Shown: positions 104 through 17,245 of the stretch, one piece after another
Position numbering within the stretch: position 1 is the first letter of the stretch
How the letters are laid out: every line of letters starts with the position of its first letter
Assembly (NCBI GenBank): GCA_000500915.1
Contig: AYNO01000007.1
Coordinates: 1-47,419 of the forward strand
From: Rhodobacter sp. CACIA14H1
Lineage (GTDB): Bacteria; Pseudomonadota; Alphaproteobacteria; Rhodobacterales; Rhodobacteraceae
Reading direction: 5' to 3'
Length of the DNA: 47,419 bases
The notes under the pieces: model-generated
What the model was told of the DNA's origin: nothing
The model's input: the letters and a program-made list of their open reading frames with translations, nothing else
The model's database searches: none
Translations under genes and position numbers: made by a program

Positions 104-1413
104 TCAGCCCGCCGAACGGACCGTGCGTGCAATCACGCTCTGCACCAGATCGGCAGCCTCGACCTGCGGCAGGTGGCCGACGCGGTCCAGACGGTGCAGC
201 GCGACATGGGCCGGAACCGCCGCCTCGATCTCGCGCAGCGGGACGATGGCATCGTCACGCCCTGCGATCACGGAACAGGGGCCGCGATAGGCCCGCAGCG
301 CCGCCGCCACGTTGAACAGTTGCGTGGACCCCTCGAACACGCCCCGCGCCACACGGGTTTGCGCAGGCACCAGCCCCGCCTCGTCCCGCGCCGCCAGCGT
401 CGCCCGCACCAGAACGGGCGCAAGGCTTGCCGGATCGGACACCAGCCGCCGCATCCATGCGGCCAGCGCGGCCTCGGACCTTGCCGACAGGAACCCGTCC
501 ACGAAATCGCCATCGACCGAAGCACCCAGCCCCGCCGGCGCGATCAGCGTCAGCGACCGCACATCCAGGTCGCCGCGCCCAGTCAGCGCCGCCGCGACGG
601 CAGCCCCCAGCGAATGGCCGACCAGATGCACCCCGCCATGCAGCGCCCGCAGCGTCGCGCCCACCGCATCGACCAGCGCCGCGAAATCGCTGCGCCGTGG
701 CGCTGCGATGCACCATGCCCCGGCAGGTCCAGCGCCATCATGGGCGACCCCAGACCGATCCGCGCCACCAAGGGCCGCCACGAGGACAGGTCCGCCCCGA
801 AGCCGTGGATGAAGACGACCGGCGTCCCCTGCCCGGATTGCAGCGTCCGCAACTCCAGCGCACCGCCTGCGGGGGCGGCAGCAACCGCCGCCTCCACATC
901 GCGCAGCACCACGGCGCCGCGCGGTCCGGTCCCGGCGATCCGCCCGATGGTCAACCCGTGATCCGCCGCCACCCTGCGGGCGACGGGCGAGGCACGGTCG
1001 CCCCCGGAAACCTTCGCCTCGACCTGCGGCTGCGCGGGCGGCTGTGCGGGCGCCGGGGCCGGCGCGTGCGCGGGTGTTGCGGAAACCGGCAAGGGGGCGT
1101 GCGTATGTACAGTTTGCGGTACAGCCGGCGGCACAGGGTCCGGTACGGCCATTCTGGCCTCTGCCACAACTTCGCCCTCGGCGCCGACATGCATCAGCGG
1201 CTCCAGCACGGTCGCCACATCGCCCACCTTCCAGGGCAGGGAAATCACCACCCCTTCGGAAAACGCCTCGACCTCGAAGCTGGCCTTCTCGCTCTCCACC
1301 ACGGCGACCAGATCACCCTTCTTCACCTTGTCGCCCAGCTTCACATGCAGCTCGACGACCTTCGCCTCGGTCAGGTCCTGCCCGACCTGCGGCACCAGAA
1401 TTGCCTCGGCCAT
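104..1413 (-). pseudogene. acoC: Acetoin dehydrogenase E2-like: lipoyl domain, E3-binding domain and alpha/beta hydrolase, frameshifted
   Basis: The 5' part (1413 down to about 715) has a biotinyl/lipoyl domain with the lipoylated lysine in ESEKASFE (Lys43), a Pro/Ala linker, a peripheral-subunit-binding domain at about 141-173 and the start of an alpha/beta hydrolase (oxyanion motif HGFG near 203, then LPGHGAS). The rest of the hydrolase, with nucleophile elbow GHSLG and the C-terminal GHLPQVE histidine, is in another frame (about 715 down to 104, TGA at 104-106). The frame change is equivalent to one missing base between about 690 and 735. AcoC proteins have this fused architecture: they carry the acyl group from E1 to CoA, and the hydrolase domain replaces the usual catalytic acyltransferase domain. 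Either a real inactivation or a sequencing error; the neighbouring transaldolase has the same kind of lesion. Confidence 0.85.
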
Positions 1414-1431
1414 TTGCCTTGTTTCCTTCCC

Positions 1432-2651
1432 TCAGGCTGCCTGCGACCGGGCGCTTTCCAGCGCACGGGCGACGAAATCCACCGTCCGCCGCGTCGCCGC
1501 GGCAAACTCGTTCGCGGTGGCGGCAAAGGCCGCGAAGCGGCTGAATTCGGCGGGCAACATCCCATCGAAATCATAGGCTTGCCGGAAATAGGGCAGCTGG
1601 CGCAGCTTCTCGATCACCTCGGCGGGCGCGTCCTCGTCGATGGCGGATGCCTCGAATTCCGGCAGCCGGTCCTCGGCCTGCATCAGTTGGGCGATGTATC
1701 CCGGCGGGCAGGTATAGACGAAATCCCCCCCGCGATCTTCGAGATATGCCAGCTCGACGCCGTGCCACCCTCGCCCTCGTCCTGCACCCGCATCGAACAT
1801 TGCAGCATCTTGGACGGATGCCCCGTCGCCTTGCCATGCCGGTAGGCGCGTTTCAGCACCGCCATCTCGCCGTGGAGAATTTCCTCCGGAGTCAAGGAGA
1901 TGCCGCGCAACTCGGCCTGCACCTTCAGATCACCCACATTGCCCAGACGGGCCGACATATGTGTGATGACCGACCGCCAGCGCGACAGGTCCACCCCCGC
2001 CGCCCGGGCCCGTTCCAGCCCGCGGCTGACCGCGTTCATGCATTCCACATACTGCGGCACGGTGAACGAGGTGGTGTTGTTCGTGGAAATCCCGCGCGCG
2101 GTCAGCTCCTCGATCACCCTGTAACCCTCGGCGCTGCCGGGGATTTTCACCATGACATTGCGGCCCAGCGCGGCCAGTTGCAGCCCCTGCGCCAGCATCA
2201 GGTCGAAGTCCGTGACGAAACGCGGATCGACCTGACCGGACAGATAACCATAGCGGCCATTGCTGGCATCATAGACCGGCAGGATCATCAGCGCGCTCTG
2301 GCGCACGACTTCCAGATAGGTCTTCCAGTAGATGCCCTCGACATCGTCCTGCGGGTTCTCCGCCGCGATCCGGCGGATTTCCTGCATCCAGAAGTCGGGA
2401 TCGTTCTGGATCGCCTGCAAGGACAAGGGCGGGTTGGTCGTCACCCCGCCAAAGCCCATGCGGCCCTCGGCATCGATCGTGGCCGGATCGAAGAGCCGCG
2501 TCAGCTGCGCCTCCCAATCGGCCTTCTTGGCGGCGGGTGCCGAAGCCAGCACCCCCTTCTTCCAGCTTTCATAGACCAGAGGCGAGCTGTCCCACCAGAT
2601 TTCGCAATCGGGGTTCGTCGAGGCCAGTTTTTCCAGTACGTGCAAGGTCAT
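1432..2651 (-). pseudogene. Transaldolase family protein, frameshifted
   Basis: The first frame gives a transaldolase barrel with TTNPPL at 71-76 and the Schiff-base lysine in MVKIPGSAEG (Lys169), then EELTARGISTNNTTSFT. The frame fails after the sequence encoding VQDEGEG, near 1768-1770. The protein continues in another frame from WHGVELAYLEDRGGDF to the stop at 1432. Adding one G to the GGG run (CCC on the plus strand at 1768-1770) would give ...DEGEGWHGVELAY..., which reads naturally, so a one-base homopolymer loss is the simplest explanation. Intact, it would be about 405 residues, longer than TalC-type enzymes because of a C-terminal extension. It lies between the E1 beta and E2 genes of an acyloin-cleaving complex, an unusual position that suggests it supplies or consumes that complex's substrate. 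The precise substrate is unknown. Confidence 0.82.
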
Positions 2652-2660
2652 GGCCGCCCC

Positions 2661-3668
2661 TCACTCTGCCGCCGCAGCCAGCGACTGGACGTGCAGCACG
2701 CGCTTTACAGCGGCGACCACGTCCTCTTTCTGCGGGACCGACGCCTTTTCCAGCGTCAGGTTGAACGGCACGGGAATGTCCATGCCCGCCACGATCTCGA
2801 CCGGCGCGTCCATCTCGTAGAAACATTCCTCCTGCACGATCGACGCTATGTCGGACGCCACGCCGCCGCGGCGGTTGGCTTCCTGCACGATGACGCAGCG
2901 GCGGGTCTTCAGCACCGACTTGATGATCATGTCGCGATCCAGCGGCACAAGCGTGCGCGGGTCGATCACCTCGACGCTGATCCCTTCGGCGGCCAGCGCC
3001 TCGGCGGCTTCCAGCGTGCGGGGGATCATGTTCGACCAGGCGATCACGGTCACATCCGACCCTTCGCGCTTGATGTCGCCCACGCCGAAGGGCACCACAT
3101 GCTCGCCATCCGGCACCGGACCCTTGGTCATGTAAAGGTGCTTGTGTTCCAGGAACATCACCGGATCTTCCTGACGCAGCGCGTATTTCAGCAGCCCCTT
3201 CGCATCCGCCGGGGTCGAGGGCATCACCACCCGCAGACCGGGGATGTGGTAGAACAGCGCCTCGAGCGACTGGGAATGCTGCGCGGCCACACCGCCGCCC
3301 GTGCCGCCCTGCGTCCGCATGATGAACGGCACCCGGCCATCGCCCCCCGTCATCAGACGGAACTTGGCGGCCTGGTTCACGATCATGTCCATGCCCAGCA
3401 TGGCGAAGTCCACATAGAGGATTTCCACGATGGGCCGCGCGCCGGCGATTGCCGCGCCTACACCCACACCGATCATCCCCGCCTCGGCGATGGGCGTGTC
3501 GCGCACGCGCTTCGGCCCGTATTTCGCCAGCAGCCCCTCGGTCACCTTGTAGGACCCGCCGCGTTCGGCGATCCCTTCCCCGATGATGAAGACCGTCGGG
3601 TTGGCGGCCATTTCCTCGTCGATCGCTTCGCGCAGCGCCTCGCGGTACATCAGTTCGCGTGTTGCCAT
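2661..3668 (-). CDS. acoB: Acetoin/2-oxoacid dehydrogenase E1 component, beta subunit
   Basis: 335 residues, full length for a transketolase-like pyrimidine-binding E1 beta subunit. Family motifs are visible: IGEGIAERGG near the N-terminus, RVRDTPIAEAGMIGVGVGAA, and the C-terminal domain with IDPRTLVPLD. E1 beta pairs with E1 alpha (next gene upstream in transcription) in an alpha2beta2 thiamine-diphosphate enzyme that decarboxylates a 2-oxoacid or cleaves an acyloin and passes the acyl group to lipoyl-E2. An E2 of AcoC architecture points to acyloin cleavage rather than pyruvate dehydrogenase. The start has a GGGAGG-type ribosome site. No E3 gene is in the window, so E3 may be shared with the housekeeping complexes. 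Confidence 0.9.
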   Translation of the reverse strand: MATRELMYREALREAIDEEMAANPTVFIIGEGIAERGGSYKVTEGLLAKYGPKRVRDTPIAEAGMIGVGVGAAIAGARPIVEILYVDFAMLGMDMIVNQAAKFRLMTGGDGRVPFIMRTQGGTGGGVAAQHSQSLEALFYHIPGLRVVMPSTPADAKGLLKYALRQEDPVMFLEHKHLYMTKGPVPDGEHVVPFGVGDIKREGSDVTVIAWSNMIPRTLEAAEALAAEGISVEVIDPRTLVPLDRDMIIKSVLKTRRCVIVQEANRRGGVASDIASIVQEECFYEMDAPVEIVAGMDIPVPFNLTLEKASVPQKEDVVAAVKRVLHVQSLAAAAE

Positions 3669-3694
3669 GATATGTCCTCCCTCTCCCCTGCGCC

Positions 3695-4681
3695 TCAGTA
3701 ACCGACCGCGAATTCGCGGAAGGACTCGGGCGTGACCTCGGGGCTGTTCTTCGAGAATTCGACCGCGTCGGCGAATTCGGCGGCGATTTCGGCCTCGATG
3801 GCGGCGATTTCCTCGTCGCTCACCCCGGCCATTTCCCTGAGCGCGTTCCGTGCGCGGTCAACCGGATCGCGGGCCTTGTAATAGGCCAGCTCCTCTTCGG
3901 GCATGTACTTGCCGGGGTCGTTCACATGGTGGCCCATGTGGCGATAGGTCTTTGCCTCGATCAGCACCGGCCCCTTGCCCGCGCGGCAGGTGGCCACGGC
4001 CTGTTCCATCACCGCGTGGACGGCCAGCGGATCGTTCCCGTCAACCTGATGGCTTTCCACGCCGATCGCCAGACCGCGCTTGTAGAGGTCGGTATCGCGG
4101 GTGGATTCCTCGATCCGGGTCGAAACGGCGTACTGGTTGTTCTCGATCACGAGGATGAAGTTCAGGTTCCAGATCGCCGCCAGGTTCAGGCTTTCGAGGA
4201 AGGTCCCGTTATTGGACGCCCCGTCGGTCGAGAAGGTGACCGTCACCGCATCCGACCCCTTGACCTGATTGGCCAGCGCAGCCCCGACGCCCAGCGGCGT
4301 GCCCGCCCCCACGATGCCGTTGGCGCCAAGGTTGCCCTTGGAGATGTCGGCGATGTGCATCGACCCGCCATAGCCGCGGCAGTAACCGGTTTCCTTCTGC
4401 AGAAGTTCGGCCACCATCTTGTTCACATCCGCACCCCAGGCGATGCAGTGCCCGTGGCCGCGATGGGTCGAGGCGATGAAATCGCCCTCGCTCAGCGCAG
4501 CGCAGACGCCCGTCGCGATGCCTTCCTGCCCCAGATAGGGGTGGAAGTATCCGCGGATCAGACCCTGACGGTACAGCTTGATCCCTTCGCTTTCGAAGAC
4601 GCGGATCTTGTAGGCAGTGCGGAAAAGTTTTTCCAAAAACTCGCGCGAAGGCGCGTTCTGCAACGAAGCAGCAGCTCCCAT
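3695..4681 (-). CDS. acoA: Acetoin/2-oxoacid dehydrogenase E1 component, alpha subunit
   Basis: 328 residues. The E1 alpha pattern is clear: RGYFHPYLGQEGIATGVC, HRGHGHCIAWG, the flexible GYCRGYGGSMH loop, and the thiamine-diphosphate/Mg motif as TDGASNNG...VIENN. The usual first glycine of GDG is threonine here, a mild deviation. First gene of the minus-strand operon; ATG at 4681 with a strong GGGAGGAAAG site. It reads away from a 292-bp divergent region shared with the MurR/RpiR regulator, which is therefore the probable local controller. Downstream come E1 beta, transaldolase and E2. Substrate specificity cannot be read from sequence; pyruvate-type or acetoin-type substrates are alternatives to a sugar-derived acyloin. 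Confidence 0.9.
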   Translation of the reverse strand: MGAAASLQNAPSREFLEKLFRTAYKIRVFESEGIKLYRQGLIRGYFHPYLGQEGIATGVCAALSEGDFIASTHRGHGHCIAWGADVNKMVAELLQKETGYCRGYGGSMHIADISKGNLGANGIVGAGTPLGVGAALANQVKGSDAVTVTFSTDGASNNGTFLESLNLAAIWNLNFILVIENNQYAVSTRIEESTRDTDLYKRGLAIGVESHQVDGNDPLAVHAVMEQAVATCRAGKGPVLIEAKTYRHMGHHVNDPGKYMPEEELAYYKARDPVDRARNALREMAGVSDEEIAAIEAEIAAEFADAVEFSKNSPEVTPESFREFAVGY

Positions 4682-4973
4682 CTTTCCTCCCGGTCGCCGT
4701 TAGATTCGGCTTAGACAGTTCATTGACTGGGTTTTTTCTAAGTTCGGATCACCATCTTGTCGAGAAAATTTTTTGCAAAATGAACGTGATCGGTGCGATT
4801 TTTGTGAAACCTTCTTTCACGAAGGGCGAGTGAAACAGAAAATATCTATACAGACCAGATGGTTACCGTGAATCCGGTCGCCCAGGGCCGGTGAAGTGCG
4901 CCGAAACCGGCGTGAAAACTTCTTCCGAAAGTTCTGGCCAATGCCTATCTTCACACGCAAAGAGGAGAAGCAG
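4682..4973. promoter_or_regulatory. Divergent promoter region of acoA and the RpiR regulator, with an operator-like palindrome
   Basis: This 292-bp AT-rich gap separates acoA (minus) from the RpiR gene (plus). At 4804-4820 it holds a perfect inverted repeat, GTGAAA-N5-TTTCAC, of the kind MurR/RpiR proteins bind. Overlapping it is a second repeat, CCTTC-N6-GAAGG (4810-4825). A half-site GTGAAACAGAAAAT follows at about 4830. The stretch GAAAATAT at about 4838 recurs in the promoter region of the sugar transporter operon near 17390. Assignment as the operator is inference from position and symmetry; no promoter hexamers are clear. Confidence 0.55.
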
Positions 4974-5876
4974 ATGCCCGACCCACTTACTCTGCAGGCT
5001 GGTGGCGATCTCGTTCAGAGGATCCAGGAACGCTACACCTCGCTCCGCAAGTCGGAACGCATCGTTGCGGATTACCTGCGCGACCATGCGGGAACGCGTC
5101 TCAGCCTGTCGATCACCGAGCTGGCCCAGACGCTTGGCCTGTCCGAAGCCACCATCAGCCGCGTCAGCCGCGCCCTCGGCTATTCCGGTTTCCCCGACCT
5201 GAAGCTCTCGCTGGCCGAAGGGGCCGTCACGCGGTCGTCCTTTTCCAACATCCCGGCCGAGATCGACCAGACCGACACGCTGATTGCCACATCGGCCAAG
5301 CTGGCAAACCTCCTGTCCACGGCGTTGCAGGGCACACAGCGTATGCTCGATTCCGAACGTATCGACGCCTGCATCCGCGCCATACGCGGGGCGCGGAAGG
5401 TCGTGCTGGTGGGTGTCGGCGGGGCGGCCGCGATCTGTGACGAGGCGGCGCACCTGTTCATGAAGGCAGGGCTCGACGCAACAGCCTGCGCGGACCATTA
5501 CACACAGGTGGTGCTGGCCGCGAACCTCGGCCCCGACTGCGTGATGATCGGCATCTCGCACACCGGCACGACGCAGGGGATCGCAAGCGCGCTGCGGCTG
5601 GCCCGCGAAAAGGGCGCGACGACCATCGCCATGACAAGCGACCCCACCTCGCCCGTCGCCCGTGCGGCGGAAACCACGCTGGTGACATGGAGTTCGGCCA
5701 CCCCGTCAGTGCCCCTCTACGGGGACTTCCTTGAAGGGCGGATCAGCCAGATCTATCTGGTGGACCTGCTCTATATCGGGCTTCTGTTCGAGGAAGAGGG
5801 CGACCGCTCCTCGAACCTGAAGAACACGGCCTCGGCGCTCGAACGGTTCTACCAGCGCATGGGGGGTGAGCCGTAG
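4974..5876 (+). CDS. MurR/RpiR family transcriptional regulator
   Basis: 300 residues from the ATG at 4974, chosen over an in-frame ATG at 4896 because AGAGGAGAAG lies just upstream. The N-terminal RpiR helix-turn-helix domain includes LSITELAQTLGLSEATISRVSRALGY; the C-terminal SIS domain (KVVLVGVGGAAAICDEAA ... ISHTGTTQGIASALRLARE) binds phosphosugars in this family. Such proteins usually repress sugar catabolic genes and respond to a phosphorylated intermediate. It is divergent from the acoAB-transaldolase-acoC operon and probably also controls the transporter/kinase operon starting at 17245. A phosphosugar effector fits the FGGY kinase in that operon. It ends three bases from the stop of the convergent LVIVD gene. 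Confidence 0.9.
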   Translation: MPDPLTLQAGGDLVQRIQERYTSLRKSERIVADYLRDHAGTRLSLSITELAQTLGLSEATISRVSRALGYSGFPDLKLSLAEGAVTRSSFSNIPAEIDQTDTLIATSAKLANLLSTALQGTQRMLDSERIDACIRAIRGARKVVLVGVGGAAAICDEAAHLFMKAGLDATACADHYTQVVLAANLGPDCVMIGISHTGTTQGIASALRLAREKGATTIAMTSDPTSPVARAAETTLVTWSSATPSVPLYGDFLEGRISQIYLVDLLYIGLLFEEEGDRSSNLKNTASALERFYQRMGGEP

Positions 5877-5879
5877 GGT

Positions 5880-7115
5880 TCAGCCCAGAAATTCCATCAC
5901 CGACAGACCCGCATTGAAGTCGGTCGCATAGACCAGCCCGTTGCGGTCCACATGCACGTCCGCCGAATGCAGGACCGGCGCACGGTTCGGGCGCGGGTCG
6001 ACCATTTGCGCGGGCGGCGGCGGGACACAGGCGCCCACCTCGACAGGGCGGAAGGGGTCTGTGATGTCATGCACCCGCACGCCGGCATTCTGCCAGGTTG
6101 AAAAGATCAGCGTTTCCGACTGGAAGGTGCCGGGGCGGTTCTCGTGGATGTTGTGCGGCCCGAAATGCCCGCCCACGGCATGATAGTCGCGGTCCGAAGG
6201 CGGCGGGAAGGTGGATATGCTGACGGGCTTTCCCTTGACCTGATTGTCGAAGACCCAGATCGGCTTGATCCCGTCCTCGCCATGGTCCAGCACGGTTTCA
6301 TCCACCACCACCAGCAGGTCCCGCCCCGGCAGCGGCAGGGCATTGTGCGTCCCCCCGCCAAAGGGCGGCGACCAGACGATGTGGTTCATAAGCTTCGGCG
6401 CGTGCCGGTCCGATACATCGACGATCGCAAGGCAGGCATCGCGCCAGCTGCAATAGGCGATGTCGCCCTGCACGATGGGATGGTGCAGCCCGAACCGCCC
6501 CGCAGGCAGCGGCCAGTCCGGCACCTCTCCCGCCGCTGCGTTCATGCCGGGCAGCCAGAAGCGCGACGCGAGGATGGGTTTCTCCGGCATGGCCATGTCG
6601 ATGACGATCAGGATGTAATCCGTGAACCCGTCCAGCAGCGCCGAGGCATAGGCCCAGCGCCCGCCCGTGTACCAGATGCGGTGCAGGCCCATGCCTTCCA
6701 CCTTCATGAAGCCGATCTGTCGGGGGTTTTTGGGGCGCGAGATGTCATAGACCGCCATCCCCGCCGACCAGTCGCGCGTGCCGCCCGCATGGTGGCTGAC
6801 CCCGCCCTTGTAATAGGCCTTTTCGTCGGCCATGTCGGACTGGGCGAACATGTCCTTGTTGTGGATCACCAGCAGCAGGTCGTCATGGGTCTGCAGATGC
6901 AGGTTCCATGTATTCGGCGGCGCGGGGATATGGGCCACGGGACGCGGGTTCACCGGATCGCGCAGGTCGATCACGCTGAAACCCTTGGAAAAGATGTGGC
7001 CCACATAGCCGTAACCGCGATGCACCATCAGTTGCACCCCGTCGGGTCGGCCGCCCTGATCGCTGACCGACAGCAGGCGCATGTTGCGGGCATGGGTGGG
7101 GGCAATTGCGCTCAT
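5880..7115 (-). CDS. LVIVD-repeat beta-propeller protein
   Basis: 411 residues built of recurring strands of the type VIDLRDPVNPRPVAHI, VYDISRPKNPRQIGF, IVDVSDRHAPKLMNHI and VHDITDPFRPVEVG. These are LVIVD-like propeller blades, giving a predicted six- or seven-bladed beta-propeller. No signal peptide is visible, so it is probably cytoplasmic, unlike many secreted LVIVD proteins. Histidines in conserved loops (GLHRIW, GLHHPI, HAVGGHFGPHNIH) might bind metal or substrate; an enzymatic role such as a lactonase is possible but unproven. It lies 20 bp beyond the terminator of the sugar operon in the same direction, so it is either read through or has its own promoter. Confidence 0.8.
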   Translation of the reverse strand: MSAIAPTHARNMRLLSVSDQGGRPDGVQLMVHRGYGYVGHIFSKGFSVIDLRDPVNPRPVAHIPAPPNTWNLHLQTHDDLLLVIHNKDMFAQSDMADEKAYYKGGVSHHAGGTRDWSAGMAVYDISRPKNPRQIGFMKVEGMGLHRIWYTGGRWAYASALLDGFTDYILIVIDMAMPEKPILASRFWLPGMNAAAGEVPDWPLPAGRFGLHHPIVQGDIAYCSWRDACLAIVDVSDRHAPKLMNHIVWSPPFGGGTHNALPLPGRDLLVVVDETVLDHGEDGIKPIWVFDNQVKGKPVSISTFPPPSDRDYHAVGGHFGPHNIHENRPGTFQSETLIFSTWQNAGVRVHDITDPFRPVEVGACVPPPPAQMVDPRPNRAPVLHSADVHVDRNGLVYATDFNAGLSVMEFLG

Positions 7116-7134
7116 GGCAGCGGTCCTTCGGGTG

Positions 7135-7191: not shown

Positions 7192-7881
7192 TCAGCGTGA
7201 CTGTTCGAAGACGAAGACGCGCGGTGCGCCGTCGGCGGGCAGCATTTCGGGCGTCAGTTCCATCTCGGACCCGCCGACCCGTGTGATGCTGTCGGCGGGA
7301 ACGCGGGCGAGGAAGCTTTCGACCGGTTCGATCTTCAGCACGCCCTTGGGACTGTAGTAATGCATCGGGATCACGGCCTTCGGCCCGATGACGCGGATCG
7401 CCTCGTCCAGATCGGGCAGCGGGATCGTCGCGTGGTCGCCGGTCAGCGCCAGCAGCACATCCACCTTGCCCTTCAGCGCCTGCAGATGCCCGTCAGGCAC
7501 CGCCGTGCCGATATCGCCCATATGCAGGAAACGCAGCCCGCCAAGCGTGAAGTGATATAGCGCATTGGCATCCGGATCGCGGCCATATTCCGTCTGGTAG
7601 TCGAAGGTCAGGCTTTCCGTCGCCGGATAGGACGTGACCTCGATCCCCTTGACCACGCGCCCGCCCGCCGGAATGGCCAGCGTGTTGACGACTTCGGGGT
7701 TGCCGGTGATGTGGCTGGGATCGGAATGGAAATCATCCGTGTCCGAAGACATCAGGACGATGTCCGCAGGTTCGTTGATCGGGTCGAAATGCGACTTCTC
7801 GCAGTTGAAGGGGTCGGTGATGACGGTCAGCCCGTCCCCTTCCAGCCGGAAACTCGCATGGGCATAGAACTTGATCTTCAT
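7192..7881 (-). CDS. MBL-fold protein with altered metal motif
   Basis: 229 residues starting MKIKFYAHASFRLEGDG, a typical UlaG-like beginning; the ATG at 7881 is preferred to the longer reading frame from 7926. The fold is recognisable from ITDPF, the LHMGD region, and a late histidine in IPMHYY. The canonical metal motif THxHxDH is replaced by SSDTDDFHSD: the first two histidines become Ser and Thr, Asp is kept, and the third His is shifted. It may bind a different metal set, one metal only, or be non-catalytic. UlaG-type relatives hydrolyse sugar phosphate lactones, which would suit this operon, but the changed motif makes that uncertain. It is the last gene before the terminator, 4 bp after the ABM gene. 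Confidence 0.78.
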   Translation of the reverse strand: MKIKFYAHASFRLEGDGLTVITDPFNCEKSHFDPINEPADIVLMSSDTDDFHSDPSHITGNPEVVNTLAIPAGGRVVKGIEVTSYPATESLTFDYQTEYGRDPDANALYHFTLGGLRFLHMGDIGTAVPDGHLQALKGKVDVLLALTGDHATIPLPDLDEAIRVIGPKAVIPMHYYSPKGVLKIEPVESFLARVPADSITRVGGSEMELTPEMLPADGAPRVFVFEQSR

Positions 7882-7885
7882 GGCC

Positions 7886-8170
7886 CTAGACCCTCTGTCC
7901 GGTGAACAGCGTCCAGTTGGCGACAAGCTCGTCCTGCCGGGCCGAAAACGCCTTGAGGTGCGGCGAATTCATATGGTCATCCCACAGCGGGCGGGTTTCC
8001 CATTCCTCGGTGAACATGAACAGGCCCGGCTCGTCATCGGATTTGTGCATGTCATAGAAGATGCAGCCCTTTTCGGCCCGCGTCGGCGCGATCAGCGCCT
8101 TGAGCACGACAAACAGCGCCTCTTCCTTGCCGTCCTTCGCCTTCAGCGTCGCATTGACGGTCAGCGGCAT
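7886..8170 (-). CDS. Antibiotic biosynthesis monooxygenase (ABM/LsrG/YgiN-like) domain protein
   Basis: 94 residues, starting MPLTVNATLKAKDGKEE at the ATG at 8170. It has the ABM ferredoxin-like fold pattern: a first strand, a helix with LKALIAPTRAEKGCIFYDMHKS, then FMFTEEWETRPLWDDHMNSPHLKAF. In this family the histidine in the HxxSxH-like segment is commonly active. Members are cofactor-independent monooxygenases or isomerases; LsrG, which rearranges phospho-AI-2, belongs here, which is notable beside a sugar kinase and an aldolase. Its start overlaps the end of the HAD gene by 10 bp, so the two are translationally coupled. Confidence 0.82.
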   Translation of the reverse strand: MPLTVNATLKAKDGKEEALFVVLKALIAPTRAEKGCIFYDMHKSDDEPGLFMFTEEWETRPLWDDHMNSPHLKAFSARQDELVANWTLFTGQRV

Positions 8171-9806: not shown

Positions 9807-10361
9807 TCAGATCAGCGTTTCTGCCGCACGCGAAGGGTCGAACAGGCGCCGGCGCCCGGCCTTTTTCGCTTCGTTGTCGAAGACCGTTCCGTTGGGCGAC
9901 GAGACGATCTCCAGTTGCAGCCCCCAGGGTGCCATGAAGTAGCACCATGTCAGGCCAAGGTTCGGCCCGTCGGTATAGGAGGTGGGCTCACCCAGCACCT
10001 TCACCCCGTTGTCCTTCAGGAATTTGATCGCCGCATCCATGTCATCGACATAGAAGGCCATGTGATGCCCGCCGATATCGGAATTCTTCAGCGGCCCCTC
10101 GGTCTTCTGGTCCGGCGCGGAATACTGGAAGACCTCAAGATTGGTGCCATTGCCAAGGCGCACATAGCGGAATTCCTTGATCTCGGACCGCGGATGCACG
10201 TTCAGATGTTCCGCCATCCAGTCGCCTTCGCCACGGAAGTCGGTCGCTGCGGTGAACAGCACTTCCGCGCCAAGGATGCGGGTGAAGAAATCGCAGGCTT
10301 CGTTGATGTCGGGCACGGTGATGCCCACATGTTCCATACCGCGGATACCAGGAATCGGCAT
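9807..10361 (-). CDS. VOC family protein (glyoxalase/bleomycin-resistance/dioxygenase fold)
   Basis: 184 residues with two beta-alpha-beta-beta-beta units. Likely metal ligands are visible: His in GMEHVGITV (about residue 11), Glu in LEVFQ, His in GGHHMAFYV and Glu in LQLEIVSS, which is the paired H/E pattern of metal-dependent VOC enzymes. Members isomerise, epimerise, or cleave small ketones and aldehydes. In this operon it may epimerise or rearrange a sugar-derived keto intermediate, but no subfamily can be assigned. It lies between the kinase and class II aldolase genes with 21- and 55-bp gaps. Confidence 0.82.
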   Translation of the reverse strand: MPIPGIRGMEHVGITVPDINEACDFFTRILGAEVLFTAATDFRGEGDWMAEHLNVHPRSEIKEFRYVRLGNGTNLEVFQYSAPDQKTEGPLKNSDIGGHHMAFYVDDMDAAIKFLKDNGVKVLGEPTSYTDGPNLGLTWCYFMAPWGLQLEIVSSPNGTVFDNEAKKAGRRRLFDPSRAAETLI

Positions 10362-10382
10362 TTCAAAGTCTCCCTTCAGTCG

Positions 10383-11945
10383 TCATTGGTATTTTTGCGA
10401 GAAGTCGGAAAGCGCGGCATATTGGCCCGACTTGGCAATAGCCTCGTAGATGCCGCGATAGATGGCGTGCTGTTCGCCATAGAGGTCCGCCAGCTTCGCA
10501 TTCGGCTCGAAGGTGCTTTCCACCTGCACCATCGCACCCACCGCCTCGTCGATCGAGGCAAAGGCGCCCGATCCGAAGGCACCAAGGATCGCCGCGCCAA
10601 GGGCGGTGCATTCGCGCTCCTTCGTGACGGTGGACGGCACGCCGATCACATCGGTCATGATCTGCACGAAGCCGTCGGATTTCGTCCCGCCCCCCGTCAG
10701 ACGGAAATCCGTGATCCCGCCGTCGATGTCGGACTGGAAACTGTCGAAGACCATCTTCATCTCGTGCGAGCAGCCTTCCAGCAGCGCGCGGATCAGGTCA
10801 TGCCGTTCGTGGTAAAGCCCCAGCCCGAGGAAGCCTCCCCGCGCCACCGCGTCGTAATAGGGTGTGACCTGGCTGGCCATGAAGCTGTGGAACATCGCGC
10901 CATTGGCGCCGGGCTTGGAATTCTGCGCCTGTTCGACCATGACGGAATAGACGCTGGTGTTGCGCCGCGCACTTTCGTCCAGCTCGTTGCGGCCCAGTTG
11001 GTCGCGCCACCAGCGCAGGGACGCGCCAAGGCTGAAGGCACCCCCTTCGATATCCCACGCGCCGGGCACGCCATGCCCGCCCCACCACAGCTTGTTGCCC
11101 TTGATGCGCTCCACGCTGTCCAGATGCGCCACCATGACGCCGGATGTGCCGACGGTGAACTCCGCCATACCCTGCCTGATGACACCCGCGCCGATCGCCG
11201 CGCATTGCTGGTCGCCCGCGCCACGGCACAGGATCACGCCTTCGGGCAACCCCGTCTCATGCGCCGCCGCCTTGGACAGACGCCCCACCATCGTCGCCGG
11301 GGTGCCCACGGGGGGCAGACGGTCGCGCCCGATGCCGCAGGCGGAAAGGACGCGGTCCGACCAGTCCAGCTTGGCGATATCCATCATCCCGTTCAGCGTC
11401 AGCGAGGCCGGGTCCGTCGCCCAGTCATCCGCGCCCATCCGCCACAGGAAATACTCCTGCCCGTTCACGAACCAGCGCGTGGCATCGAACAGGTCGGGCC
11501 GGTTCTCGCGCAGCCAGACGATCTTGGCCGCCGACCACAGCGGGCTGATGGTCATGCCGGTATGGGTCTGATGCTCTGCCGCGCCGAATTCGGACGAGAT
11601 CGCCTCGACACTCTTCAACGCGCGGCCGCAGTTCCACACCAGCGAGTTCATCAGCGGGCGGCGGTTCTCGTCCAGCAGCCCGAAGGTGCCGCGCTGGCTG
11701 GACAGACCCACGGAATGATAGGCCTCGGCCGGAAGACCCGCCTTTGCCACCGCCTGTTTCGTGGCCGAACAGATGCCCGCCCAGACCTCGTCCAGCGACT
11801 GTTCGATCCAGCCCGGCTGGGGCGACGAACAGTTGTATTCCTGATAGCCGTGGCCGACCGCGTTGCCCTTCTCGTCGAAGATCATCACGGTGCAGCCCGT
11901 CGTGCCGGCGTCTATGCCGACAAATACCTTCCCTTTACGCGACAA
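10383..11945 (-). CDS. FGGY family carbohydrate kinase, probable TTG start
   Basis: 520 residues from a TTG at 11945; GGGGGAGG lies at about 11951-11958 with a five-base gap, and the gene before it ends at 11975. An in-frame ATG at 12005 would overlap that gene by 31 bp and add 20 residues that align with nothing obvious. The N-terminal phosphate motif is FVGIDAGTTGCTV; GAGDQQCAAIGAG, TVGTSGVM and the adenosine motif LTGGGTKSDGFVQI follow, then CTALGAAILG. FGGY kinases phosphorylate polyols or ketoses such as xylulose, erythritol or AI-2. It is the committed step after import by the ABC transporter and would make the effector for the RpiR regulator. The exact substrate is unknown. Confidence 0.88.
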   Translation of the reverse strand: MSRKGKVFVGIDAGTTGCTVMIFDEKGNAVGHGYQEYNCSSPQPGWIEQSLDEVWAGICSATKQAVAKAGLPAEAYHSVGLSSQRGTFGLLDENRRPLMNSLVWNCGRALKSVEAISSEFGAAEHQTHTGMTISPLWSAAKIVWLRENRPDLFDATRWFVNGQEYFLWRMGADDWATDPASLTLNGMMDIAKLDWSDRVLSACGIGRDRLPPVGTPATMVGRLSKAAAHETGLPEGVILCRGAGDQQCAAIGAGVIRQGMAEFTVGTSGVMVAHLDSVERIKGNKLWWGGHGVPGAWDIEGGAFSLGASLRWWRDQLGRNELDESARRNTSVYSVMVEQAQNSKPGANGAMFHSFMASQVTPYYDAVARGGFLGLGLYHERHDLIRALLEGCSHEMKMVFDSFQSDIDGGITDFRLTGGGTKSDGFVQIMTDVIGVPSTVTKERECTALGAAILGAFGSGAFASIDEAVGAMVQVESTFEPNAKLADLYGEQHAIYRGIYEAIAKSGQYAALSDFSQKYQ

Positions 11946-11974
11946 GATTTCCTCCCCCCCGTCGTCTTTGTCCT

Positions 11975-12595
11975 TCAATCGGCCTGCGGCAGTCCCGCCA
12001 GCCATCCCGACAGAAGGGCAAGGAACCGCAACCGGCGCGCGCTGTCCGCCTCGGACAGTCCCGCCAGCAGCCTTGCCTTCGTGCCAAGCACATCCTCGTC
12101 CTTCGATCGCACGGTCACCTGCGCGATGGCCTGCCCGCTATCACCCGCGCCCTGCCATTCGCGCACGTCAAAGCCCCAGCGGCGCAGGGCCAGGGGCCAA
12201 GTCGCATCCAGCGCCGGCCCACCCTCCAGCCGGACGCGGCAATGGAAATCCACCACCCCGCCCGCGCGGACCATCTCCTGCAACTCCGGCGGCATGGTCG
12301 GATGCAGCGGGATGCCGCTGGCGAAATCGCCCTCGACGATCTCCACCACCGCCGCCTGCCCCATCCGGCGCAACAGATCGCGCAGCACCAGATGCTTGGC
12401 CGTGCAGGCCCCCCGCCCCGTCCGCAACGCCGCAAGCGGCGTCCGGTCCGGGCCAGAGAAATAGGGCATCGCCTGAACCGCGCGATACGCAGCGACGACA
12501 CCCCCTGATGCCACATGCGCCGCAAGGAAGGCGTCCAGCGCCTCCTGATAGGGGTCGCCCCCCTTCCCTGCGACTGTGGCCTCAGAAGTAGGCAT
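11975..12595 (-). CDS. Transglutaminase-like cysteine protein
   Basis: 206 residues from the ATG at 12595 (a GTG at 12604 is possible). Three segments fit the Cys-His-Asp triad of the transglutaminase/arylamine-N-acetyltransferase fold: GRGACTAKHLVLRDLLRRMG, VVDFHCRVRL and PALDATWPLALRRWGF. The spacing and the strand after His agree with the fold. I do not recognise the family more closely. It starts inside the last codons of the ATPase gene (14-bp overlap) and precedes the kinase, so it is co-expressed with a sugar transport and kinase operon. That is an unusual place for such a protein; it could hydrolyse an amide or ester of the imported compound. Confidence 0.65.
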   Translation of the reverse strand: MPTSEATVAGKGGDPYQEALDAFLAAHVASGGVVAAYRAVQAMPYFSGPDRTPLAALRTGRGACTAKHLVLRDLLRRMGQAAVVEIVEGDFASGIPLHPTMPPELQEMVRAGGVVDFHCRVRLEGGPALDATWPLALRRWGFDVREWQGAGDSGQAIAQVTVRSKDEDVLGTKARLLAGLSEADSARRLRFLALLSGWLAGLPQAD

Positions 12596-13676
12596 GTCCG
12601 TCACCCGCGTCGAAGACGTGCCACTTGTCGCGGTTCACGGTCAGATAGCAGGTCTCGCCCGGCTTGCCCGCGAATTCCGGCGTCGTCTTCACGCGGATGC
12701 GGCAGTCGTCAAGCTCCACTTCCACCAGCATGTCGCCGCCCAGCAGCTCGTTCACGAAGATCTCGCCACGGATCGCGGCCTCGGACGGTCTGGTCATGCT
12801 GATCGACATCGCATCGGGGCGCACGCCCATCCGCGCCACGCCGGTCTGCGCCGCGCCGTTCAACTGGCGCACCTGACCGGGCAGCAGCGGGATCTCGAAG
12901 TTCTTGTGCATCAGCGAGACGCCATCCCCCTCGCCCTTGATCCCGCAGGTCAGGAAGTTCATCGCGGGTTCCCCCACGAAGCCAGCAACCCAGGCGTTGA
13001 CGGGGTTGTTGAAGATTTCCGACGGTGTGCCCCACTGCTGCAACTCGCCGTCATGCATGACCGCGATGTAGTCGGCCATCGACAGCGCCTCGAGCTGGTC
13101 ATGCGTCACGTAGATCATCGTCGTGCCCAGCGTGCGCTGGAGGTGCTTGATCTCGCCCCGCATATGCGCGCGCAGCTTCGCGTCGAGGTGGGCGATGGGT
13201 TCGTCGAACAGGAACAGCTTGGGTTCCCGCACGATCGCCCGCCCGATCGCGACCCGCTGCTTCTGCCCGCCCGACAGCTCATGCGGACGGCGGCCCAGAA
13301 GGTGGCTGATCTCCAGAAGCTTCGCGGCCCCTTCCACCCGTTCCTTCACGGTGGACTCGCTGGCCCCGCGCAGACGCAACGGGTTCGCGATGTTTTCATA
13401 GACCGACTTGTGCGGATAAAGCGCGTAGTTCTCGAACACCATCGCCACGTCGCGGTCCTTCGGCGCCAGATCGTTCACGCGCTGCTCGTCGAACAGGATG
13501 TCGCCACTGCTGATATGCTCCAGACCCGCGATCATCCGCATGGTCGAGGATTTGCCGCAGCCCGACGGGCCAAGGATCGAAACGAAGCTGCCGTCAGGGC
13601 AAGTGATGTTCAGATCCTTCACGGCCGGTGTCTCGCCGTAATACTTCCACACGTTCCTGATGGTAACGGTCGCCAT
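12582..13676 (-). CDS. Sugar ABC transporter ATP-binding protein (MalK/UgpC type)
   Basis: 364 residues. Walker A GPSGCGKSS at 36-44, Q-loop ENYALYP, signature LSGGQKQRVAIGRA, Walker B LFLFDEP followed by IAHLDAKLR, H-loop VTHDQLEA, and a C-terminal TOBE/MalK regulatory domain (VRPDAMSI ... YLTVNRDKWHVFDA). It powers import of the substrate bound by the Tat-exported binding protein at 15719-17245 through the two adjacent permeases. The D-loop region IAHLD differs slightly from the usual LSNLD. Its 3' end overlaps the transglutaminase-like gene. Confidence 0.93.
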   Translation of the reverse strand: MATVTIRNVWKYYGETPAVKDLNITCPDGSFVSILGPSGCGKSSTMRMIAGLEHISSGDILFDEQRVNDLAPKDRDVAMVFENYALYPHKSVYENIANPLRLRGASESTVKERVEGAAKLLEISHLLGRRPHELSGGQKQRVAIGRAIVREPKLFLFDEPIAHLDAKLRAHMRGEIKHLQRTLGTTMIYVTHDQLEALSMADYIAVMHDGELQQWGTPSEIFNNPVNAWVAGFVGEPAMNFLTCGIKGEGDGVSLMHKNFEIPLLPGQVRQLNGAAQTGVARMGVRPDAMSISMTRPSEAAIRGEIFVNELLGGDMLVEVELDDCRIRVKTTPEFAGKPGETCYLTVNRDKWHVFDAGDGHAYF

Positions 13677-13711
13677 GGTGTAGTCCTCCCAGTTCGTTGG
13701 TATGGGCGCAC

Positions 13712-13736
13712 GGGCCGCCGGGGGCCCGCGCGGCCC
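13712..13736 (-). repeat. GC hairpin between permease and ATPase genes
   Basis: Arms GGGCCGC (13712-13718) and GCGGCCC (13730-13736) enclose an 11-base loop that can itself pair. It lies in the 63-bp gap between the second permease and the ATPase gene. It has no T run, so it probably acts as an mRNA stability or attenuation element rather than a full terminator. Confidence 0.45.
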
Positions 13737-13739
13737 GCA

Positions 13740-14618
13740 TCATTCCTTCACCGCGCCCATCGTCAGGCCGGCCACGAGGTATTTCCGGATCACAAGGCCC
13801 AGCAGCATCATCGGCGCGGTCGTGACGACACCTGCCGCCATGATCGACCCCCACTGGATGTTCTGCGGCTGCACCAGTTCGCGCGTCGCCACCGGCAGCG
13901 TCTTTGCCCCGCCCGACCCGATGATCGCCGCGAACAGGAAGTCGTTCCAGGCGAACAGCACGCAGAGCACGACGAAGGCACCGATCCCGGGGGCCACCAG
14001 CGGCAGGATGGACCGGAAGGCCTCGAACCGCGTGGCACCGTCCACCATCTGCGCCTCTTCGATCGCATAGGGGACGTTGTCGAAGAACCCCTTCAGCATC
14101 CAGATCGCGAAAGGCAGGTTGAAGGTGGTATAGGCCAGGATCAGCCCGGGCAGGGTCCCGACAAGGTCGAGACTGCGGAAGATCGCGTATAGCGGCACCA
14201 TCACCGCCACCACGGGCGCCATCCGGGTCGAGATGATCCAGAAGAACAGGTCCTGCTTGCCGCGGAAATCCACCCGGCTCAGCGAATAGGCCGCCAGCGA
14301 ACCGAAGATCACCGAGATCACCGCCGACCCGCCGGCTGCGATCAGGCTGTTCATGATGTAGGTGCCGAAGCTGTTTTCGGTAAACAGCGTGGTGTAATGC
14401 TTCAGCGTCGGCGAGAAGTCGAAAAAGACCGTCATCCCCGCCCAGTCACCCACCACCGGCAGCTTGAAGGCTTCCAGCATGTCCTTGAAGGACGACACGA
14501 ACATCACCACGAAGGGCAACAGCGTCCAGACAAGGTAGAAGGCGACAAAGACGGTGCCGAAGATGCTCAGCGCACGCGATAGCGGGGTATCGTAGGATAC
14601 GACGTCACGGGAAGCCAT
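13740..14618 (-). CDS. Sugar ABC transporter permease (MalG/UgpE type)
   Basis: 292 residues with six predicted membrane segments, the first in FGTVFVAFYLVWTLLPFVVMF. The EAA loop that contacts the ATPase reads EEAQMVDGATRFEAFRSILPLVAPG. Partner of the MalF-type permease encoded three bases upstream in the same operon. The substrate is set by the binding protein and is not known; the neighbouring kinase and aldolase genes imply a polyol or ketose. Confidence 0.92.
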   Translation of the reverse strand: MASRDVVSYDTPLSRALSIFGTVFVAFYLVWTLLPFVVMFVSSFKDMLEAFKLPVVGDWAGMTVFFDFSPTLKHYTTLFTENSFGTYIMNSLIAAGGSAVISVIFGSLAAYSLSRVDFRGKQDLFFWIISTRMAPVVAVMVPLYAIFRSLDLVGTLPGLILAYTTFNLPFAIWMLKGFFDNVPYAIEEAQMVDGATRFEAFRSILPLVAPGIGAFVVLCVLFAWNDFLFAAIIGSGGAKTLPVATRELVQPQNIQWGSIMAAGVVTTAPMMLLGLVIRKYLVAGLTMGAVKE

Positions 14619-14621
14619 GGT

Positions 14622-15620
14622 TCAGCCCTTTCCGCCCTGGGGTTTTTCAAAGACGCGGACAAGGAGCTTGCCCAGAAGGATGGTCACGATCAGCAGCGTC
14701 AGCGCGATGGCCGCGCCACGGCCCAGCTTGAAGAACTTGAAGGCGACCTCGAACAGATAGACCGGCAGGATCTTCGTCGCACTTCCCGGCCCGCCGCCCG
14801 TCAGGACAAGGATCGAGTCGATGAAGCGGAAGTTGTCCATGAACCGCAGCAGCACCGCGATCAGCAGGACCGGATAGAGGTTCGGCAGGATGATCGCGAA
14901 GAAGTTCCGCAGCGGCGAGGCACCATCCACCATATTGGCCTCCAGCTGGTCCCGCGGCACCCGCTTCAGACCGGCCAGCGCGATGATGGTGATCAGCGGC
15001 GTCCACTGCCACACATCCACCAGCACGATCGCATACATGGCGGTATCGGCACTGGCGAGGATGGACGCGCTGTCCAGGATTCCCGCGCTCTGCAGCACCC
15101 AGTGGTACCAGCCGAACGTCCCGTTATAGAGGAACAGCCACAGCAGACCCGCCACGGCAGGCGCCATCATCATCGGCATCAGCAGCGCCGTGACGAGGTA
15201 TTTCTCGTATTTCGAGCTGTTGACGACCACCGCCAGCGTCACGCCCAGCCCGACCTGCAGGCCAAGGCACATGACCGAATACTGCGCCAGCAGGATCCAG
15301 CCGTCGATGAAGCGGGCATCGGTGAACAGCTTCGTATAGTTCTTCAGACCGATCCATTCGCCCCCGCCGATATCGACGTCCTGCAGCGACATGATGATCA
15401 GCCAGAAGAACGGATAGAGCGAGATGAAGGCAAGGATCGCGATCGCCGGCGCCATCAGGTAATAGTAGTAATGCTTGGGCATCGGCGGGTTGAACTTGCG
15501 CGGCTTGTGCGTGATTTCGGCACGCGGACGCGCCTCGACCTCGACGGAATGGGCGCGTGCACGGAACAGCTTCGACGCCACTTCGCGCGAGGTTCCGGAA
15601 AGGGATGAGACATCTGTCAT
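14622..15620 (-). CDS. Sugar ABC transporter permease (MalF/UgpA type)
   Basis: 332 residues: a charged cytoplasmic N-terminus of about 50 residues, then six predicted membrane segments starting at YYYLMAPAIAILAFISLYPFF. The EAA loop is LEANMVDGASPLRNFFAIILPNLYPV. It forms the membrane channel with the MalG-type permease. It follows the binding-protein gene after a 98-bp gap that contains a strong hairpin, as in many binding-protein-dependent operons where the binding protein is made in excess. Confidence 0.92.
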   Translation of the reverse strand: MTDVSSLSGTSREVASKLFRARAHSVEVEARPRAEITHKPRKFNPPMPKHYYYYLMAPAIAILAFISLYPFFWLIIMSLQDVDIGGGEWIGLKNYTKLFTDARFIDGWILLAQYSVMCLGLQVGLGVTLAVVVNSSKYEKYLVTALLMPMMMAPAVAGLLWLFLYNGTFGWYHWVLQSAGILDSASILASADTAMYAIVLVDVWQWTPLITIIALAGLKRVPRDQLEANMVDGASPLRNFFAIILPNLYPVLLIAVLLRFMDNFRFIDSILVLTGGGPGSATKILPVYLFEVAFKFFKLGRGAAIALTLLIVTILLGKLLVRVFEKPQGGKG

Positions 15621-15682
15621 GTCGGTCGTCGCTCCTGCCTTGGGCCTTTGGCCGGGGGCGGCAATTCGGGATGGAAGGGGAA

Positions 15683-15707
15683 CCGGCGGCCCGCAGGGGG
15701 CCGCCGG
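15683..15707 (-). repeat. GC hairpin after the sugar binding-protein gene
   Basis: A perfect ten-pair stem, CCGGCGGCCC (15683-15692) with GGGCCGCCGG (15698-15707) and a five-base loop, just after the stop of the binding-protein gene on the minus strand. There is no T run. It probably stabilises the upstream message or partly ends transcription, so that the binding protein outnumbers the permeases. Confidence 0.6.
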
Positions 15708-15718
15708 GCGATGTGCGA

Positions 15719-17245
15719 TCAGACGCCGTTCAGGCCGTCGATCTGGTCCTTCAGCGAGGCGGCGGTGTCGGCCGGGCTCATCTCGCCCGACAGCATCCGC
15801 TGCGTTTCCGACGCGATGAGCGAGTGGTACTCGTTCGCTTCGGTGATCTTCGGGCCCAGAACGAAGTTCGGGTCCTTGATGCCGAAGTTGTAAACCGCGT
15901 CGAAGGTCAGGGCGTTGGGCATCGCGCTCGGACGGCTCTTCGCGGCCTGCACCTCCGGAATATCCAGCACGGACTTGCGGGTGGGCGTGCCGCCCAGACC
16001 CTTCAGCACGTCATACTGGATGTTCTTCGAGGTGGACCAGATCGCAAACAGATAGGCCGCACGCTGCACGTCCTCGGGCGCGTTGGCGTTGATGCCGATG
16101 CCGCCGATGCCGCAGTTGGTGCCGTTCACCGCTTGACCGCCATTCAGGATCCAGCTCGCCTCGCCCTTCGGGCAGGGCGCATAGGCCGTCTTGCCACCCG
16201 CCGCGACCGAGGTCTTCTCGTCTTCGACCGAGGCCGCGAATTCGTGGTACTGGACCTGCATCGCGATGTTGCCCGACTGGTAGACGGTGTTCAGCTCCAG
16301 CGTGCCGTTGGCCAGGTTGTCGGGGTGCGACACATCGGCCAGCGCCTTGAACTTCTCCAGCATCAGGACGGACTGTTCGTCGCCCCAGTTGGTCGGACCC
16401 GGCTCTTTCGACCCGATCTTGTCGTCCATGTTGAAGTCGGTCCAGCGGCCATGCGCGAACATCATGCGCTGGATGTCCAGCTGCGTGGTCCAGGCAAAGC
16501 TGCCTTGGTGCTGGGCATAGCCATAGGGAACGTCCGCCCCGCCTTCTTTCAGCTTCTTGAAGAAGGTCGCGATGTCCAGCACGTTCTTCCAGGTGGAATT
16601 CTCGTTGTATTCCAGCCGGTAGCCATATTCGGCCTCGAAGTCCTTGGTGTACTTCTCGAACAGGTCCTGACGGTAGAAGGTCACCGCGATCGCCGCGTCA
16701 TAGGGCAGCGCGATGATCTTGTCCTCGGAATAGAAGCGCCCGCAGGCCGACAGGAAGTTGTCGAACCACGCATCGTCGCCATAGCCGTCCACGTCCTGCG
16801 GCAGCGTCTCGTCACCGAACATCTTGGACAGATCGACGTAGAAATCGGCGAAGGGCGCGCCGATCGGCTTGTCCTGGATGTAGTTCAGCACATAGTCCGA
16901 CTTGCCCGAACGCAGGTCGATCCCCGCCTTCTGCTGCACAACCGGCAGGTCGTCGGTCAGGATTTCGACCTCGATGCCGGTCAGGTCATAGAAGGCCTTG
17001 ATATTGTCGCGGATGGCAAAGGACGGCGGGGTGTTTTCCGACAGGAACGTCAGCTTGGACCCGGCATATTGCTTCCACTTGGCGTCATCGGACGAGGCCG
17101 CCTGAACCCGGCTCGACATGATGGTGGAGTTCAGGCCGACGGCCAGCGACCCCGTGCCCAGCATCGTGGCGCCATACCCACCCAGCTCGAGGAACCGGCG
17201 GCGACTGACGCGCGAGACCTGCGCATTCTTCGGTTTGTGAAACAT
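15719..17245 (-). CDS. Extracellular sugar-binding protein, Tat-exported
   Basis: 508 residues from the ATG at 17245, which has GGGAGAG upstream; a longer reading frame to 17326 lacks support. The N-terminus carries a twin-arginine signal, SRRRFLELGG at about 14-23, then a hydrophobic stretch to about residue 45 ending VQAAS. The mature part is a MalE-family (family 1) solute-binding protein, long for the group. Tat export implies folding before export, perhaps with a bound ligand or metal. First gene of the operon that includes permeases, ATPase, transglutaminase-like protein, kinase, VOC, aldolase, HAD, ABM and MBL genes. Confidence 0.92.
   Translation of the reverse strand: MFHKPKNAQVSRVSRRRFLELGGYGATMLGTGSLAVGLNSTIMSSRVQAASSDDAKWKQYAGSKLTFLSENTPPSFAIRDNIKAFYDLTGIEVEILTDDLPVVQQKAGIDLRSGKSDYVLNYIQDKPIGAPFADFYVDLSKMFGDETLPQDVDGYGDDAWFDNFLSACGRFYSEDKIIALPYDAAIAVTFYRQDLFEKYTKDFEAEYGYRLEYNENSTWKNVLDIATFFKKLKEGGADVPYGYAQHQGSFAWTTQLDIQRMMFAHGRWTDFNMDDKIGSKEPGPTNWGDEQSVLMLEKFKALADVSHPDNLANGTLELNTVYQSGNIAMQVQYHEFAASVEDEKTSVAAGGKTAYAPCPKGEASWILNGGQAVNGTNCGIGGIGINANAPEDVQRAAYLFAIWSTSKNIQYDVLKGLGGTPTRKSVLDIPEVQAAKSRPSAMPNALTFDAVYNFGIKDPNFVLGPKITEANEYHSLIASETQRMLSGEMSPADTAASLKDQIDGLNGV

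Follow-up and report, generated by a model that had tools for sequence, protein, structure and literature searches.

A gene cluster near the start of contig AYNO01000007.1 of Rhodobacter sp. CACIA14H1 places a transaldolase inside the operon of an E1-E2 dehydrogenase complex and next to a sugar importer, which raises the question of what kind of sugar catabolism such a combination could carry out. The window analysed here is the entire contig (47,419 nucleotides) and belongs to a 3.87 Mb genome of 236 contigs that is 88% complete. An initial annotation had listed an RpiR regulator, an Aco-type complex, a transaldolase, an FGGY kinase, a class II aldolase and VOC, HAD, ABM and MBL proteins around one sugar-type ABC importer, all of which are present, and had read them as one system in which the complex splits a 1-deoxyketose-like acyloin into an acyl-CoA and an aldehyde. 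The idea of a single system holds up in our analysis, whereas the 1-deoxyketose substrate found no support. We instead favor, with a probability of roughly 37%, the reading that the cluster is one regulon for sugar catabolism via a ketose phosphate, which the E1 complex would cleave oxidatively.

In order of transcription, the minus strand encodes a solute-binding protein, two permeases and an ATPase, a transglutaminase-like protein, the FGGY kinase (10383..12005; of a subfamily without an assigned substrate), a VOC protein, the class II ketose-bisphosphate aldolase (8873..9751), a HAD phosphatase of the CbbY (xylulose-1,5-bisphosphate phosphatase) family (8161..8883), ABM, MBL and LVIVD proteins, and then the thiamine diphosphate (ThDP)-dependent E1α (3695..4681), E1β (2661..3668), the transaldolase (1683..2651) and E2 (two parts, 583..1413 and 104..781). 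The RpiR-family regulator (4896..5876) is encoded divergently from the E1 operon on the plus strand. The nearest named loci are those of Rhodobacter amnigenus (L032) and Gemmobacter straminiformis (L033), the former being 94% identical to the window at the DNA level across the first 4.8 kb. In L032, E2 is followed by a full transketolase, LpdA and phosphoglycolate phosphatase (Gph); the window contig begins just past E2, so these three genes lie outside it (other contigs were not searched).

Does this arrangement amount to one unit? Named genomes were scanned with an alignment of the transaldolase, and the 80 best loci among the 89 relatives it yielded were analyzed; presence in these loci is threshold-based, and contigs that end early were scored as absences. 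E1α, E1β or E2 stands beside the transaldolase in 38 of the 80 loci (E1α in 35, E1β in 36, E2 in 38), and the order E1α-E1β-transaldolase-E2, referred to as the cassette, is identical in all 33 loci in which the four genes were found, with every gap between them below 300 bases in 31. Further cluster genes recur as well, namely the RpiR regulator (32 loci), aldolase and HAD (27 each), Gph (24), LpdA (18) and transketolase (12). Aldolase and HAD are paired in the same 27 loci, neither being found without the other, and the window-type kinase and transglutaminase-like genes occupy exactly the same 17. The remaining 42 loci, mostly Sphingomonadales by title, encode the transaldolase without the complex inside the flanks examined. 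A separate sample of 341 genomes from the order that includes the window's genome was searched for the window-type kinase and the transaldolase; both were found in the same two genomes, including the window's own, and start about 8 kb apart in the other one. The locus is generally rare, with strong transaldolase matches in four of 61 relatives (own included) and, at class level, in three of 385 genomes, of which the other two are Sphingomonadales; no further cluster gene was seen in the sequence fetched from these two. Because gene order and co-occurrence recur across other genomes, the cluster is, as judged from its distribution, patchily inherited and more than a chance neighborhood. The joint occurrence of transaldolase, acoAB-type genes and FGGY kinase operons elsewhere, to which the one-system idea was tied, was confirmed in other genomes.

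A second line of evidence comes from an AT-rich 17-mer that the RpiR-E1α gap of the window shares with the stretch preceding the importer. Allowing up to two mismatches, the window has four sites of this operator-like motif where 0.03 would be expected: between RpiR and E1α (4764..4780, plus strand, no mismatches), twice upstream of the importer operon (17376..17392, minus strand, no mismatches, and 17521-17537, two mismatches) and once inside the start of the E1α gene (4622-4638). Across 32 cassette loci (567,542 bases) 91 sites were found, compared with a mean of 0.63 and a maximum of 7 for 60 permuted motifs, bearing in mind that the motif was derived from the window itself and that the loci scanned are kin. 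Non-coding positions at most 330 bases upstream of cluster genes account for 58 of the 91 sites, their nearest genes being E1α (26), the aldolase (13), RpiR (12), the transglutaminase-like gene (4) and the binding protein (3); 29 others lie inside E1α, three inside other cluster genes and one elsewhere. The most independent support is provided by the sites preceding the aldolase, found in ten loci, nine from rhizobial genera and one unclassified (L109). The sites within E1α (29 in the 32 loci) may act as a further operator or may simply follow from conservation of the encoded peptide, and scanning L063 gave no site. The RpiR protein may bind the motif and probably governs one regulon. As the two operons co-occur elsewhere and have an operator-like motif in common, they look like one system, and at the level of gene content and upstream sites the importer, FGGY kinase, aldolase, CbbY-type phosphatase and E1-transaldolase-E2 cassette are one conserved unit.

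The E1-E2 complex most closely recalls the acetoin dehydrogenase complex (AcoABC and LpdA). E1α misses both curated pyruvate dehydrogenase (PDH) E1α models (329 bits against a cut-off of 394, 236 against 411) and carries the motif STHRGHGHC, which was also seen in the E1α of one acetoin operon and in four further E1α proteins encoded on plasmids; it is thus of the acyloin type by motif. E2 shows the AcoC set of lipoyl, E3-binding and α/β-hydrolase domains, although part 1 of the window protein reaches only 117 bits where the acetoin E2 model has its cut-off at 307, and Shinella records name the cassette E2 an acetoin dehydrogenase E2. In a tree, however, 17 cassette E1α rows form one clade (100/99) apart from three acoA references, named by their neighbor genes, and three carrier-genome paralogues; long branches were flagged, and the paralogues L130 and L132 (frames not found) and L131 are not included. 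The cassette further differs in having a transaldolase within the operon and in its link to an importer, a sugar kinase, an aldolase and a CbbY-type HAD. Acetoin reference operons carry acoX-like, acetoin reductase or butanediol dehydrogenase genes, none of which is annotated in the two Shinella loci or was recognized in the window locus. Two further E1α-like matches are present in the window genome. Related E1αβ-E2 sets were also seen on Sinorhizobium (L119, 4601-11815) and Aminobacter (L120, 4607-9341) plasmids, the former alongside a sugar importer, LpdA and lipoyl synthase, the latter with an RpiR gene and an importer. Both adjoin an NAD(P)H-dependent oxidoreductase and are perhaps another uncharacterized acyloin-cleaving system.

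The transaldolase matches the TAL_FSA domain at 99.6 bits, and K169, S233 and R235 are invariant in alignment A1; we take K169 to be the Schiff-base lysine and S233/R235 the Ser-x-Arg phosphate motif of transaldolase. The cluster protein is probably a true transaldolase, since in the two Sphingomonadales genomes tested the cluster-type protein is the sole match to the family. Sulfo-transaldolase and sulfo-transketolase pathways resemble the cluster in that sugar catabolism is built on a transaldolase or a split ThDP enzyme. The cluster transaldolase family, however, matches the short BmSF-TAL at only 25 bits, and no sulfosugar genes were recognized in the window locus. On a Clavibacter plasmid (L114, 11854-12978), a distant relative of the transaldolase (34%) adjoins an inositol (iol) cluster. 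A Chitinivibrionales metagenome-assembled genome (MAG; L092, 6104-16801) encodes E1α, E1β and transaldolase at about 60% identity together with a weaker E2, a PfkB kinase, two TIM-barrel proteins and a Gfo/Idh/MocA dehydrogenase; neither the cassette aldolase nor the FGGY kinase was found in this locus.

The aldolase-HAD pair bears on the chemistry. Class II aldolases add dihydroxyacetone phosphate (DHAP) to aldehydes and set the stereochemistry found in xylulose 1,5-bisphosphate, so the pair would fit DHAP and glycolaldehyde phosphate as substrates. The HAD protein scores 292 bits to Arabidopsis CbbY and 174 to R. sphaeroides CbbY (next protein 53), and the DxDGV and GGKER motifs are invariant across 28 cassette HADs. 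Plant CbbY is reported to be highly specific for xylulose 1,5-bisphosphate, from which it removes the 1-phosphate (PMC10212915). The cassette HAD agrees with CbbY in sequence family and catalytic motifs and differs in its setting, a catabolic locus in which it has a class II aldolase as partner. RuBisCO repair was considered as the reason for a CbbY relative and is unlikely for the window genome, in which, at 88% completeness, no RuBisCO large-subunit match was found; the same search gave no match in 11 of 27 other carriers. Gph of L032 and L112 exceeds the TIGR01449 cut-off of 180 (184 and 192 bits).

Further evidence on the substrate comes from a second form of the locus. This form comprises 14 loci, mostly from rhizobial kin with one from Rhodobacterales (Stagnihabitans, L058), and in it the window-type module is replaced; L045 additionally has both forms. 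In Shinella and Stagnihabitans, whose sequences extend far enough, the locus encodes a GlpD-like dehydrogenase, an FGGY kinase of another type (the two copies being 58% identical) and a different importer, which in Shinella resembles the glycerol Glp system. A glycerol pathway was rejected as main explanation: the Shinella kinase first appeared GlpK-like, but scores 93 bits on GlpK against 212 on XylB, and relatives of the erythritol enzymes EryC and EryH lie downstream. Among the 80 loci, EryH-like genes occur in eight and EryC-like genes in 13. The second-form proteins are 68-74% (EryH) and 59-66% (EryC) identical to the R. johnstonii copies, and those of Shinella 64-71% and 62-65% identical to the copies in three ery-type loci, in which the two names derive from gene order and the published pathway, as given in PMC11508834, and not from a named record. 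Apart from these shared relatives, the second form departs from the erythritol locus (eryABC-H-I) in three respects: its kinase and dehydrogenase share only 28-32% identity with EryA and EryB, it has an additional E1-E2-E3 complex, and EryI, present in all three reference ery loci, was found in none of the 84 loci examined. No ery genes were recognized in the window locus. The genome of L043, which has the window-type module, holds an EryC-like gene with one in-frame stop (G757:C10:37648-38574), possibly a relic of the other locus form. The cassette region of Shinella sp. H4-D48 also contains a lipoyl synthase gene, which suits a lipoyl-dependent complex; none was found in the other loci of the set of 84, many of which are too short to reach it.

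How could these components work together? Ketoses are acyloins, and D-erythrulose 4-phosphate would therefore be converted by an acetoin-type E1 to glycolyl-CoA and glycolaldehyde phosphate. In our proposal the window's importer and kinase would supply a ketose phosphate, while in rhizobia kinase, GlpD-like dehydrogenase, EryC and EryH would supply D-erythrulose 4-phosphate. E1 would attack the ketone in the manner of transketolase or acetoin E1 and expel a shortened aldose phosphate, glycolaldehyde phosphate in the case of a tetrulose phosphate, with the two-carbon unit being oxidized on the E2 lipoyl arm to glycolyl-CoA and LpdA making NADH. The aldolase could then condense glycolaldehyde phosphate with DHAP to xylulose 1,5-bisphosphate, from which the CbbY-type phosphatase would irreversibly form xylulose 5-phosphate. 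Transaldolase and transketolase would pass the carbon of the latter into central metabolism, and Gph would dispose of 2-phosphoglycolate. Such a cleavage of erythrulose 4-phosphate would explain why the second form has EryC and EryH without EryI, and why a xylulose-1,5-bisphosphate-type phosphatase is found beside the aldolase, together with transaldolase/transketolase and a phosphoglycolate phosphatase. The specific combination of a lipoyl-linked 'oxidative transketolase' with a non-photosynthetic salvage of glycolaldehyde phosphate via xylulose 1,5-bisphosphate is possible but should be regarded as tentative.

Several observations weigh against oxidative cleavage of a ketose phosphate. In L085 (6659-14256) and L103 (4897-9698) the transaldolase stands with an aldolase, a CbbY-like HAD and dihydroxyacetone-kinase subunits, and the E1 complex is missing. 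RuBisCO-family matches were found in 16 of the 27 other carriers, including the nearest relatives G003 and G006 (218-219 bits), so for these 16 the CbbY relative may be linked to RuBisCO repair or to a RuBisCO-like protein; only one of the 16 matches exceeds 256 bits, so that RuBisCO-like proteins may account for many of them. The Gph proteins from L032 and L112 miss the cut-offs of stricter phosphoglycolate phosphatase models. An EryI-like gene (63-85% identical) lies elsewhere in 11 of the 14 second-form genomes, so erythrulose 4-phosphate need not go to E1; genome-wide searches of the other three (R. alvei, R. wuzhouense and one Rhizobium MAG) found none. Moreover, an EryC-like gene is absent from 15 of the 22 genomes searched. 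As the window genome is one of these 15, a four-carbon substrate is no more than a possibility for it, and it is for the window that the favored reading stands weakest.

The EryI-like genes suit the main rival, in which the sugar enters the pentose phosphate pathway as erythrose 4-phosphate through transaldolase, aldolase and transketolase, as in erythritol catabolism, and the E1-E2-E3 complex is an extra acetyl-CoA-forming helper of the pyruvate or acetoin type. This somewhat unlikely alternative also gains from the tkt, fba and class 1 fructose-bisphosphatase (fbp) genes in two of the three ery-type loci and from the resemblance of E1α to PDH E1α. In addition E1β, while missing the PDH E1β equivalog (375 bits, cut-off 454), passes the PDH E1β subfamily model (399, cut-off 321), a further point against a complex devoted to ketose phosphates. 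The cluster phosphatase is, however, CbbY-like rather than fructose-bisphosphatase-like, and the transaldolase sits between E1β and E2 in all complete loci. The window genome keeps two other E1α-like genes, the cassette E1α forms its own clade, and the two Shinella loci are without the annotated accessory genes of the reference operons. The concern that the Aco complex might be a plain acetoin or pyruvate dehydrogenase unrelated to the imported sugar thus retains some force with regard to the E1α motif and the E1β model; the separate clade and the two other E1α-like genes make such plain use less likely.

Clearly less probable is an oxidative counterpart of the phosphoketolase (bifid) shunt, with E1 splitting xylulose 5-phosphate, fructose 6-phosphate or sedoheptulose 7-phosphate into glycolyl-CoA and an aldose phosphate. 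The ketose phosphates would then be regenerated by transaldolase, transketolase, aldolase and phosphatase. The cluster does hold a transaldolase, an aldolase and a sugar-bisphosphatase-type HAD, and a transketolase follows E2 in L032 and is present in 12 of the 38 loci having the complex. It was not found in the other 26, short contigs included, and the link of the second form to EryC and EryH indicates a tetrulose phosphate. As to the earlier idea that a 1-deoxyketose-like acyloin is split into acetyl-CoA and an aldehyde, the acetoin type of E1α and E2 is in its favor. No recognized neighbor, however, makes or handles a 1-deoxyketose, and the CbbY-type phosphatase, Gph in relatives and rhizobial EryC/EryH indicate an ordinary ketose phosphate and a two-carbon phosphate; we therefore found no support for this proposal and consider it very unlikely.

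If oxidative cleavage of a ketose phosphate does take place, it would be a new reaction type in sugar catabolism, leading directly to an acyl-CoA. It would also give a catabolic role to the CbbY family, known for RuBisCO repair, and account for a two-carbon branch of four-carbon sugar use in rhizobia. Irrespective of the chemistry, this is a conserved and apparently co-regulated gene set with an unassigned substrate that is directly testable. No description of it was found in the open-licence PubMed Central literature, subscription papers being outside the search.

The importer spans 12582-17326 on the minus strand and is the only one in the cluster, as initially annotated. It consists of a solute-binding protein (SBP_bac_8, 15719..17326; also kept in L043, L061, L063 and G003/G006), two permeases (14622..15620 and 13740..14618) and an ATPase of the UgpC/MalK type (12582..13676). 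The open reading frame of the binding protein begins at 17326, whereas the similarity to relatives sets in only at about residue 23; the true start may lie nearer 17250, and the initial 17245 may be closer to it than the frame start. The binding protein matched PDB entries so weakly (best E 0.008) that no ligand could be proposed from them. Two genes left unnamed in the initial annotation encode the transglutaminase-like protein (11975..12604, minus strand), with invariant Cys, His and Asp, and an LVIVD-repeat protein (5880..7115, minus strand; 5/80 loci). Relatives of the former have only a sub-threshold Pfam match, and an AlphaFold model of the L032 copy reached a mean pLDDT (predicted local distance difference test) of 90. 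A structure search with this model gave no match at E <0.001, the best-ranked structures (E 0.01 to 0.2) being mostly cysteine peptidases, transglutaminases and N-acetyltransferases. Less widely kept minus-strand genes encode a VOC-superfamily protein (9807..10361; 14/80 loci), an ABM-domain protein (7886..8203; 7/80) and an MBL-fold metal-dependent hydrolase (7192..7926; 8/80).

Near the contig end two genes are disrupted. E2 is divided by a one-base frame break near 688 into part 1, with the lipoyl and E3-binding domains and the start of the α/β-hydrolase domain, and part 2, with the remainder of the latter in another frame. The transaldolase is broken in a C run near 1725 and is without about 97 C-terminal residues (309 of 406 match; relatives have ~400-406 residues), the protein being 98% identical to that of L032 over 309 residues. 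Neither break is present in L032, where both genes are intact, and they may be assembly errors near the contig end or real decay. Outside the cluster, a 1100-residue DEAD/ResIII helicase-like protein adjoins an unassigned 315-residue open reading frame near a TetR gene (18311-22560).

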